64,000 nucleotides of DNA from positions 1 through 64,000 of the forward strand of contig CALFSX010000212.1 of assembly GCA_937916515.1 (NCBI GenBank), given 5' to 3'. Within the stretch, counting starts at the first letter, position 1. The number at the start of each line of letters is the position of its first letter. Shown one piece after another: positions 45,032-48,027 of this stretch. Position numbers and translations under genes: made by a program. Source of the DNA: an uncultured Planctomycetaceae bacterium (GTDB taxonomy: Bacteria; Planctomycetota; Planctomycetia; Planctomycetales; Planctomycetaceae). The notes under the pieces are model-generated. The model worked only from the letters and a program-made list of their open reading frames with translations. It was not told the origin of the DNA and did no database searches.

Positions 45032-46987
45032 ATGGATCGGCTTCTAAAATTATCGCTCATGCTTACAGCACTTGTGCTGGCAGGCAATGCCGACGCTCAG
45101 GACGCCGCTTTGTACACTGTGGCAGGCGATGTTCCTAAGGCTGAAACGATTCCCTTTGATCCAGTCAGCCACGTGTACGTCCTGGATCTTATAGAACACA
45201 GCGGATTAGTCGCACCGGAAGGCAACGCACTTATTCTTCGAGGTAATCCGCTGCAGGCCGTCTTCAGCGATAACCTGCGTCCTCAGATGACGGGACGTGG
45301 TTCCAGATTAATGCCTGGCGATGTGGTTGTATTCAGGTCGCTTACTTCGGAACCGATGGGTGCGAATAATCTTGTGATGGTCACAGACGGTGTCCCTCAG
45401 GTCATTCCTTTAAACGCAGACGATACGGTGCTTTTGAGAGATGTGACCTATCAGTTTCCGGAGCATCTTTATGACTTCAGTGTAACTCAGACAACCTTCG
45501 GTTCGGCTCGTGCAGTAGCAAAGGCGCCGAATGACCGATTGTTGCACGGGGACGTGATTCAGGTTCGCAGTCGTACCAGTTCGAATGAGCCGCGAATCTC
45601 CAGTGTTTCGCATTCATCAAATAGCTACGGTTTTCCAGATTCGGCTGGATCATTGACTGGCTCAACTGAAACAGTTCCTGCCAAAACTGCGTCGTTGAAC
45701 AGCGAAAGCGTGTTGACGATTCCGGCCTATTCAAATGATGTACCATCTGAATCTTCGAATAACTTGCTTGAGCTTCCGACAGTTGGTGAAATGGAATTGT
45801 TGCCAGCCGGTTCGGCGGTCGCATCAAGCACTCTACCTACAAATAACAAAGACCCATTCCAGCAGGTTTCTTTTCCGGGCGATGCCAGTGATGATTCGTT
45901 TGTGATTCTGGACAGTGCTGACGAAGCCGTTCAGGAAGCCAGTACGGGAGCCGCATTGTGGAATGGAGTCTTCATATTGGGGTTGGTGTTTGCGTTGGGG
46001 CTGATTGCCGTCGGTTGGGTGAAGACTCAAAACGAACGGAAGGCTGAGCAGGAACTTGCCGCCAAGGCCCGAGCAACAAAGCTGGCGAATAGTAAAATTC
46101 GTGAACAGGATGCTCCGGTGGTGCGGCGCAACGAAACCCCGTTGCCGCCTCCCCAAAAACGTCACACTGAAGTCGCATCTCCTCTCGTTTCAAACGCGTC
46201 TGAGTCAAAGAACAAGCCTCTGGAACACTTGGTATTGGGCGCTGAAGAGTCTCCGATTCTGTCCACTGGTGGTGCTGAGTTTAATAAGTCTCAAGATGTT
46301 CCAGTTTCGTTGAAGTCAGAAGATTTGCTCACTGCACAGCTTTTGTCGGCAACCGCAGTTCAGTTTTCTGAAGTACCAGAAACGGCTGATTCTGACAGCC
46401 AGTCTGTCCGTCCAGCCAAAGCGTTGGTGAACGAACATGAATGGTTTGGAGGCGAATGGTTGAAGTCAGAAACAGCAACAATTCCGGGGTCCATCGTTGT
46501 TGAAGGCAACCGTGAGGTTGTTGTTGGAGCAGCGGACTTGTCGGAGGTTGCAGCGCAAGTGGATGAAGTTGATTCGACAGCGGTTTCTGCAGACATTGCT
46601 GCCACTGATACTGAAACTGTTGCCGAAACTGAACTTCAGCTTCCTCCCTCTGAATGCTGGAGCGATCTGGACGACTTGCTGCAGAACCGCTTACCAATGC
46701 AGTTGCTGCAGGCTGACCTGCCTCTGAAGATCACGTTGTTCGGTAAGCCGACTGGTCCGCAGCGTCTAAGAATTGATAGTGCTCATACGCAAATTGCTCC
46801 GCCACACATGTCTATGTGGGCAAAAAGTTCCAAACGGGCTCAACCAGTGGCAGCGGCAACCAAGTCGGTTACACCTGCGAAAGAGAGTGTCGTCGCATCC
46901 AGGCGGACTTCGATCGATAGCGGGGCGTCGGACGCCAACCGGTTTGACCGGGCTTTGAATTTTCTTGAGGAGCAGGCGGACACATGA
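45032..46987 (+). CDS. SLBB-like envelope protein with one transmembrane helix and cytosolic tail
   Basis: A 651-residue protein starting at ATG 45032 with a signal peptide (LLKLSLMLTALVLAGNADAQ). Residues about 30-110 resemble an SLBB/polysaccharide-export soluble ligand-binding domain (VSHVYVLDLIEHSGLV, GRGSRLMPGDVVVFRS), and a second similar unit follows (VIPLNADDTVLLRD, DRLLHGDVIQVRS). A Ser/Thr-rich linker leads to a membrane helix at 308-330 (GVFILGLVFALGLIAVGWV). The cytosolic part (~320 residues) is charged and ends in a conserved-looking segment (CWSDLDDLLQNRLPMQLLQ, LPLKITLFGKPTGPQRLRID). Its stop codon overlaps the start of the next gene (ATGA), so the two are translationally coupled. 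Function unknown. Confidence 0.7.
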   Translation: MDRLLKLSLMLTALVLAGNADAQDAALYTVAGDVPKAETIPFDPVSHVYVLDLIEHSGLVAPEGNALILRGNPLQAVFSDNLRPQMTGRGSRLMPGDVVVFRSLTSEPMGANNLVMVTDGVPQVIPLNADDTVLLRDVTYQFPEHLYDFSVTQTTFGSARAVAKAPNDRLLHGDVIQVRSRTSSNEPRISSVSHSSNSYGFPDSAGSLTGSTETVPAKTASLNSESVLTIPAYSNDVPSESSNNLLELPTVGEMELLPAGSAVASSTLPTNNKDPFQQVSFPGDASDDSFVILDSADEAVQEASTGAALWNGVFILGLVFALGLIAVGWVKTQNERKAEQELAAKARATKLANSKIREQDAPVVRRNETPLPPPQKRHTEVASPLVSNASESKNKPLEHLVLGAEESPILSTGGAEFNKSQDVPVSLKSEDLLTAQLLSATAVQFSEVPETADSDSQSVRPAKALVNEHEWFGGEWLKSETATIPGSIVVEGNREVVVGAADLSEVAAQVDEVDSTAVSADIAATDTETVAETELQLPPSECWSDLDDLLQNRLPMQLLQADLPLKITLFGKPTGPQRLRIDSAHTQIAPPHMSMWAKSSKRAQPVAAATKSVTPAKESVVASRRTSIDSGASDANRFDRALNFLEEQADT

Positions 46988-48027
46988 TTACTGCCATTGA
47001 TTTTGGGTGTCACGAAATTCGGTCCGCCTTTCGCAGTCCGAAAGATGACAAGATTGTGAATCTTTATACGGAGCGAGCCGAATATGCTGTGCTGCCTGCT
47101 GAAGATCGCTATCGACAGATTCTTGCCGACAAAAAAATCCCCTACGCTGAGTGCGAACAGAGCCTTGTTGTGTTTGGCAATCGTGCTGAACAGGTGCGTT
47201 GGCTAAGTCGAAAACCGTGCGCTCCGTTATTCGCGGACGGTAAGATTCCGACGGTAGACGCACCAGCTCGGCAGATTTTAAGCGTCCTGACAAAGGCGAT
47301 TCTGCCTCCATTGAAGCCAGAAAACGGCAGTCAGTTTTGTTGCTTTAGTGCTCCCGGAAATCGAAGCAACGCAGGGAATTCTGAGTTCCTGTCTCGCCTG
47401 ATTCGGATGCACGGTTACATTCCGGTGGAATGTTCAGCTGGTCATGCTGTAACTCTGGCAACCGGAAACGAAACCCGGTTTTCAGGTATTACGATTTTGA
47501 TCGGTGCCGATTCTTCTCAGGTTAGTATTTCTCGATTCGGTCGCGAGCTGGCCAGCGAGTCTATTAATGTTGGCGCGAACTGGATCGACAACGAGCTGGC
47601 TGAACAATTCAAGCTGCGGACATGGGACGAATCGGGCGAATGCTATCCTGACTTTTCAGCGATTCGGGAGTGGAAGCATGACCCGAAAATTCACCTGCGC
47701 AATGGCTTTAGTGAGCAGGAAAAATCGCTGTCACGGCTTTACGGGGTTGTACTCACTCGTGTTGCACGTTGCCTGAAGGGGCTGCTGCAATCAAGTTCCG
47801 CTCTGAAGGCTTCGAAAGAACGTTTGACGGTCGTTTGTGCTGGTGGTGCAACGCAGGTTGGCGGTTTTGCGGCAGCGCTCACTGAGCGATTTGTCGAACA
47901 GGATATTGCCGGAAACATGGTGTCTGTTCGTATTGCCAACGACCCGGTGACAGCCGTTGTGCGAGGTCTGTTGATTCAGGGTGAGCTGGAACAACGACGT
48001 GTTTCCGATTCGTCGGTCGCCGCGTAG
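46984..48027 (+). CDS. Actin-fold ATPase-like protein (FtsA/PilM/MreB-related fold)
   Basis: A 347-residue cytosolic protein with the actin/Hsp70 nucleotide-site pattern. Phosphate 1 loop is AIDFGCHEIRSAF (4-16), phosphate 2 is ILIGADSSQVSISRFG (about 170-185; Gly-Ala-Asp replaces the usual Asp-x-Gly), and the adenosine loop is VVCAGGATQVGGFAAALTERF. It matches no subfamily I can name. It begins four bases inside the preceding SLBB-like gene (ATGA overlap), so it is likely made in fixed ratio with that membrane protein and may bind its cytosolic tail, as PilM binds PilN. That partnership is inference. Confidence 0.72.
   Translation: MITAIDFGCHEIRSAFRSPKDDKIVNLYTERAEYAVLPAEDRYRQILADKKIPYAECEQSLVVFGNRAEQVRWLSRKPCAPLFADGKIPTVDAPARQILSVLTKAILPPLKPENGSQFCCFSAPGNRSNAGNSEFLSRLIRMHGYIPVECSAGHAVTLATGNETRFSGITILIGADSSQVSISRFGRELASESINVGANWIDNELAEQFKLRTWDESGECYPDFSAIREWKHDPKIHLRNGFSEQEKSLSRLYGVVLTRVARCLKGLLQSSSALKASKERLTVVCAGGATQVGGFAAALTERFVEQDIAGNMVSVRIANDPVTAVVRGLLIQGELEQRRVSDSSVAA

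Follow-up and report, generated by a model that had tools for sequence, protein, structure and literature searches.

Which actin does an ATPase represent when its gene overlaps that of a single-pass membrane protein, and do the two products work together? The question is raised by a gene pair of an uncultured Planctomycetaceae bacterium (assembly GCA_937916515.1, 8.3 Mb), located on contig CALFSX010000212.1 within positions 1–64,000; this whole 64,000-nucleotide stretch is hereafter the window. A first-pass annotation of the window placed the pair at 45032–48027 as a possible undescribed envelope module. Both open reading frames (ORFs) were recovered at these coordinates and share four bases, ATGA:

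45032..46987, + strand: P0001, SLBB-type single-pass membrane partner, 651 aa; ATG at 45032, stop TGA at 46985–46987; a homologue lies upstream of the actin in 47/47 loci
46984..48027, + strand: P0002, volactin-family actin, 347 aa; ATG at 46984; assigned by PF25216 (138.9 bits), fold and tree

A volactin-family actin

The ATPase had been said to fit no subfamily that could be named; it matches the Pfam model Volactin (PF25216; HVO_2015 of Haloferax volcanii) over residues 1–331 with an E value of 3.6e-40, far above the cut-off of 35 bits. Membership of PilM, MreB and FtsA, a clear case of which the first-pass annotation had named as grounds for giving up its reading, was rejected. P0002 reached 22.5 bits with PilM (TIGR01175, cut-off 133) and 16.6 bits with MreB (PF06723, cut-off 27), FtsA was not listed for it at E ≤ 1 in the Pfam scan, and the genome has its own MreB (contig C19, 389 bits) and PilM (contig C217, 145 bits) elsewhere. 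A profile of 36 Planctomycetaceae actins (A1) scored 186 and 177 bits with proteins of Haloarcula and Natrinema, whose own PF25216 scores are 447 and 466 bits; the genome's own MreB obtained 20 bits with A1 and PilM was not listed. Among 72,556 plasmid records searched by tblastn, P0002 found four matches, all haloarchaeal (E 1e-7 to 5e-5), and the same four records were matched by a homologue from another planctomycete class at 40–43% identity. By these sequence comparisons, P0002 is a volactin-family actin.

The AlphaFold model of P0002 has a confident actin fold (predicted local distance difference test (pLDDT) 87.8, predicted template modelling score (pTM) 0.86). The closest structure is MamK (Z 28.6, root-mean-square deviation (RMSD) 2.7, 297 residues aligned), followed by BeeR (Z 27.8), archaeal actin 4bql (27.4), crenactin 4cj7 (26.9) and MreB (26.4); since several actins match about equally well, the fold alone cannot place P0002, and it is the sequence that does so. 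The actin alignment and tree cover 36 of the 41 family actins (L075, L078, L101, L109 and L110 were left out). The Planctomycetaceae actins group together, a distant PilM row excepted, and the haloarchaeal proteins group with those of other planctomycete classes; very long outgroup branches drew a long-branch warning from the program and leave the root and the branching order unsure.

Three short segments of P0002 bear on its activity and turnover:

46999..47022, + strand: phosphate-1 loop DFGCHEIR, residues 6–13; Asp retained in 35/36 aligned homologues
47497..47520, + strand: phosphate-2 loop LIGADSSQ, residues 172–179; canonical Asp in only 4/36
48016..48024, + strand: C-terminal VAA, SsrA-like ending; Ala-Ala end in 32/41 family actins

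The phosphate-1 Asp is also missing from L109, outside the 36-row alignment. The phosphate-2 loop (IGADSS) had been called atypical, which holds against actins at large but not within the volactin family. The corresponding loop is SCGGGMFN in 16 of the 21 rows from other planctomycete classes, by a count made by eye; the Haloarcula and Natrinema homologues share the loop SFGAGMTN. With loops lacking Asp common across the family, the odd loop was rejected as the mark of a new subfamily. The actins of loci L191–L195 (genera g35 and g26) are short, 303–321 aa, and the profile skips about positions 200–245 in them, as if an insert or part of a subdomain were absent.

An Ala residue ends 39/41 family actins. 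Among the other ORFs in the same loci (150 aa or longer), 7/302 end in Ala-Ala, as do 1/41 partners and 0/20 volactins of other classes. The residues preceding the Ala-Ala end are variable. The resemblance of these ends to the genome's own tmRNA tag, ANTQYSLAA, suggests ClpXP turnover of the actin.

The membrane partner and its pairing with the actin

The first-pass description of P0001, a signal-peptide protein with two SLBB-like units, one transmembrane helix and a tail of some 320 residues, agrees largely with the features found here:

45032..45100, + strand: signal peptide, residues ~1–23; judged by eye from the sequence
45101..45586, + strand: ectodomain of two beta-grasp/SLBB-like units, residues ~24–185; pLDDT ~90, WzaB/Wza match with Z 9.4
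45965..46033, + strand: transmembrane helix, residues ~312–334; from hydropathy, within a modelled helix 305–359

Hydropathy gives one strong hydrophobic segment from about residue 312 (319 if numbered from the upstream GTG). The predicted topology is N-out/C-in, with the positive-inside rule judged by eye, leaving a cytosolic tail of about 317 residues. In the AlphaFold model, the ectodomain is a confident part of a chain whose overall pLDDT is only 55.9; apart from the long helix, the tail is mostly disordered, with short helices at 541–550 and 634–650. As regards the two units, unit 1 (residues 24–106) matches the SLBB-containing WzaB and Wza (Z 9.4, RMSD 2.6, 77 aligned) as claimed, whereas unit 2 (110–185) has a weaker match, to beta-grasp/ubiquitin-like folds (best Z 7.9). 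P0001 itself has no match to Pfam SLBB; among its homologues in the wide partner alignment A6 (33 of the 42 partners), SLBB was matched by 19/33 and SLBB_2 by 20/33 (Pfam, E ≤ 0.01). The A6 consensus contains the motif GxVxxPGVY..AGG..GDV, which we take to resemble SLBB. The ectodomain is thus of SLBB type, by fold and by the Pfam matches of its homologues. A PDB search with the partner sequence profile A5 gave nothing credible. Conservation in the partner is confined to the ectodomain, the transmembrane helix and two short segments of the tail.

Homologues of P0002 were found in 52/60 sampled Planctomycetaceae genomes and, outside the family, in 1/38, weakly (20 bits). In a class sample, PF25216 scored above its cut-off in 55/68 Planctomycetaceae genomes and in 0/180 others; in a phylum sample, in 76/199 genomes, including 66/189 outside Planctomycetaceae. 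The first locus set comprised 40 loci at actin matches (from 37 of the 51 other matching family genomes, plus three from the PF25216 scan), the contig-end locus L113 and the window, and six loci were added later. A P0001 homologue lies directly upstream on the same strand in 41/41 first-set loci with an actin ORF and in 6/6 later ones, and, with the starts as listed, the two genes share exactly four bases, either ATGA or GTGA, in 40/47 pairs. With this recurrence in 47 loci, the arrangement is not a product of chance. The check proposed in the first-pass annotation, whether the pair is always adjacent, has a one-sided outcome: in the 47 loci the actin never occurs without the partner, but 11 genomes have the partner and no detectable actin.

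The exceptions to intact four-base pairs are L085, with a one-base overlap, and L078, L091, L094, L098, L103 and L110. An 864-aa ORF in L085 was rejected as a natural gene fusion: it is an out-of-frame read-through, and the real actin starts at 1586. In L078/L119 (genome G007), the overlap is as usual and the partner intact, and the actin is broken by an internal TAG, either a sequencing error or a fresh loss. Among 19 named loci, partly from the same genomes, the partner was seen in 18; the contig of the remaining one, L124, begins 16 bases before the actin.

Other lineages place a different gene upstream of their volactin. In other Planctomycetota classes, 16/20 loci have a partner whose sequence matches nothing in the family loci, and a hydrophobic segment is absent from the 10 of those 16 that were displayed. 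These proteins (L133–L152 except L133, L150, L151 and L152) share an N-terminal motif like DLxxKGxxxVKVL..LIxEAV. In Haloarcula and Natrinema, the upstream gene encodes a membrane protein, 36.5% identical between the two genera and belonging to DUF7139 in Haloarcula, the only one scanned; it is a candidate for anchoring archaeal volactin at the membrane. This protein (L153:3917-4825, L154:3971-4894) is conserved, with an acidic tail and, by eye, several transmembrane segments. The volactin family extends over haloarchaea and roughly one third of the sampled Planctomycetota genomes that are not Planctomycetaceae, and its lineages have exchanged partners. The planctomycete volactin of L134 is 43% and 40% identical to those of the haloarchaeal loci L153 and L154, which suggests gene transfer between domains. 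Two further loci are unusual: L148:4644-7962 holds a tandem pair of volactin-family genes, one of them a 658-residue ORF with extensions, and in L152:5028-8417 an ORF of 1129 residues matches the actin family at 315–649 and again, partially, at 971–1028.

The tail motif and a possible membrane-anchored module

Two segments of the P0001 tail were considered as places where the actin might bind:

46652..46810, + strand: tail motif, ECWSDLDDLLQNRLP to APPHM, residues 541–593, candidate actin-docking site; judged from leave-one-out motif scores
46931..46981, + strand: C-terminal helix around RFDRALNFLEEQ, residues 634–650; seen in the model, partly retained in genomes without the actin

The motif has the pattern DLLxNRLP..LP..RxDxxH..PHF. 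Rescanning the 15 family genomes that lacked earlier matches with the 36-row profile A1 found an actin in 0/15; positive controls were matched in 8/8 cases, four of them of genus g35. A partner-profile search found a partner homologue without an adjoining actin in 11 of the 15, including two single-contig assemblies (G237 and G260). As for the remaining four, G055 corresponds to the contig-end locus L113, and G016, G052 and G226 have no convincing partner. The motif scored 23–89 bits, leave-one-out, in 42/42 training partners (of which 41 adjoin an actin ORF and one lies at the end of a contig) and 24–52 bits in 6/6 held-out partners beside an actin, four of these from g35; in the actin-less partners it scored −4 to 15 bits (11/11; Mann–Whitney p 2e-7, ignoring kinship). 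Genus g35 supplies five of these 11 as well as the four held-out actin-paired partners. In 220 shuffles of the actin-less tails, the motif score had a 95% level of 1.9 bits and a maximum of 8.6. On the ectodomain tree, the presence label of the actin needs six changes; well-supported branches force at least three of them, with a bootstrap that had not yet settled. Two of the separations between actin presence and absence fall inside g35 and would be losses rather than gains.

Because the motif and the actin are repeatedly absent together, we infer from these sequences that the motif is an actin-docking site; the simplest reading is that it is retained only while an actin is there to hold. The survival of the partner without the actin argues for some actin-independent role as well. 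The terminal helix is less likely as the main dock, since it persists in 6/11 actin-less partners and its scores within g35 overlap (2.2–8.7 with the actin, 1.6–10.7 without).

It seems fairly probable that the two genes form an envelope-linked cytoskeletal module, in which a volactin cytoskeleton is anchored at the membrane and linked to an SLBB domain that would act as anchor or sensor in the periplasm. P0001 is predicted to cross the inner membrane; its SLBB ectodomain would lie in the periplasm, probably binding a glycan or an envelope protein, and its long flexible tail would use the tail motif to keep the actin at the membrane, either as a monomer or by the end of a filament. Translational coupling through the four-base overlap may keep both proteins in proportion, and the Ala-Ala ends probably expose the actin to ClpXP, which would let filaments be cleared. 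Polymerisation, docking and the cellular role of the pair are steps that we infer. In FtsZ-less Planctomycetaceae, the module would supply a dynamic actin, tethered to the membrane, that serves to organise the envelope or to shape the cell. It can be likened to the filaments of Haloferax volcanii volactin, which passages of the report on that protein describe as dynamic, attached to the membrane at their tips and needed for the timely rod-to-disk transition (PMC10869688). FtsZ had no match in this genome, in agreement with the first-pass remark; the same model matches 13/14 control genomes.

Several observations weigh against the membrane-anchored module. The phosphate-2 Asp is gone from 32/36 aligned actins and a few actins lack the phosphate-1 Asp, so hydrolysis may have weakened or disappeared. 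Filament-forming actins mostly have shorter branches than those of the Planctomycetaceae actin clade, which are long. The actin is missing from 13/68 sampled family genomes, leaving the module short of universal in the family, and the partner persists in the 11 genomes described above. The background ORFs for the Ala-Ala count were picked mechanically. Motif remnants of 8–15 bits remain in 4/11 actin-less tails, above the shuffled level of 1.9; the motif profile was trained on actin-paired partners only, leave-one-out kept close relatives, and general divergence of the tail could account for the loss of the motif. Among the actin-less partners, only 6/11 have a terminal helix that scores above the shuffled 95% level.

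Given the branch lengths and the loss of the Asp, a PilM-like clamp is a serious rival, though a rather unlikely one. P0002 would then be a non-polymerising, monomeric adaptor that clamps the tail of an SLBB envelope receptor in a nucleotide-dependent way and switches this receptor, by the logic of PilM–PilN without pili. The weak PilM profile match and the short linear motif in the partner tail are consistent with such a clamp. However, that match is far under the cut-off, the true PilM of this genome lies on contig C217, and the family-level match is to volactin, whose Haloferax member polymerises according to the passages cited (PMC10869688).

It is improbable that the SLBB protein is part of a Wza/OPX-type polysaccharide exporter gated by the actin. 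The match of unit 1 to WzaB/Wza and the SLBB models matched by the homologues speak for it, but Poly_export was not among the families matched by the 33 homologues scanned (Pfam, E ≤ 0.01). The surroundings of the pair also argue against an exporter. Ten neighbouring ORFs were scanned; they include ispF (YgbB), ruvC, a helix-hairpin-helix protein (ruvA, by position), MOFRL/DUF4147, DUF1570, a Ser/Thr kinase, DUF2064, a response regulator and a methyltransferase, with one ORF lacking any family match. None matched a capsule, export or pilus family, and the neighbours are housekeeping or unrelated genes. Few recur beyond Fuerstiella-like genomes: family 2 (the DUF1570 gene) in 14/42 loci, family 16 in 5 and others in 3, counts that come from an ORF picker which mislabels some genes in GC-rich loci. 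That the genes are merely co-expressed and their proteins never interact is very improbable: 11 genomes do retain the partner with no actin, but in several lineages motif and actin are absent together and the ectodomain and, in part, the terminal helix remain.

Beyond the membrane-anchored module, a doubtful extension concerns the budding of Planctomycetaceae, which lack FtsZ. Their volactin would be a proteolytically resettable cortical cytoskeleton, the SLBB receptor would report the state of the envelope and the actin would help to place or shape the bud; three lineages would have taken different volactin partners, namely the DUF7139 membrane protein, the soluble-looking partner and the SLBB receptor. 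If this were true, an actin shared with haloarchaea would take part in bud placement or shaping.

According to passages of a study on Planctopirus limnophila, ftsZ is absent from all Planctomycetes, and mreB, ftsI and ftsW are dispensable in P. limnophila (PMC10632474), so the division and shape machinery of planctomycetes is an open question. A second actin, paired with a membrane protein on which a candidate docking motif has been mapped, offers a directly testable entry to planctomycete envelope organisation. The pair is not named in the main-text passages on essentiality of that study that were covered, 12 of 19 (PMC10632474). No description of an SLBB partner–volactin pair was seen in the paper listings of a literature search, most subscription papers being beyond its coverage. 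For volactin and planctomycetes, it returned passages on a different actin only, that of Uabimicrobium; for planctomycetes, SLBB and actin, papers with unrelated titles only; for Planctomycetota and actin homologue, magnetotactic bacteria only; and for DUF7139, nothing. The notion of an undescribed module holds for the pair but not for the actin family, which is already described; the novel part is filed here as the coupling to a membrane receptor.

Comparison with known systems

In PilM–PilN, too, the gene for an actin-fold ATPase adjoins that for a single-pass membrane protein, which carries a short docking motif. That motif sits in the N-terminal tail of PilN, whereas the candidate motif of P0001 is in the C-terminal tail; the partner here is of SLBB type and the neighbours scanned include no pilus family, so the distinction from PilM–PilN and FtsA modules drawn at first sight stands. 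MreB–RodZ likewise combines an actin with a single-pass membrane anchor, but P0002 is under the MreB cut-off and P0001 has an SLBB ectodomain. The Wza/OPX polysaccharide export proteins share the SLBB-like ectodomain fold; the P0001 homologues (n = 33) have no Poly_export match, and P0001 adds a predicted transmembrane helix and the long cytosolic tail. MamK and BeeR, the closest solved folds, are only 16% identical to P0002 over the aligned part, and MreB and eukaryotic actins lie only 2–4 Z units lower; BeeR is conserved in Verrucomicrobiota, according to passages of its description (PMC11929497).

The nearest relatives are the volactins themselves. Those of other Planctomycetota classes belong to the same family (E 9.9e-26 to 3.5e-64 with the A1 profile) and differ in their upstream partner, in 16/20 loci, and in the absence of the Ala-Ala ending (0/20). 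Like P0002, which the full-length profile assigns to the same family, the Haloarcula and Natrinema homologues lack the usual phosphate-2 Asp; P0002 is about 20% identical to the haloarchaeal homologues found among the plasmid records. The Ala-Ala end was seen only in Planctomycetaceae actins. In haloarchaea (two genera seen), as in Planctomycetaceae, a membrane protein is encoded upstream of the actin; the haloarchaeal neighbour is a multi-transmembrane protein (by eye), DUF7139 in Haloarcula, whereas that of Planctomycetaceae is the SLBB single-pass protein.

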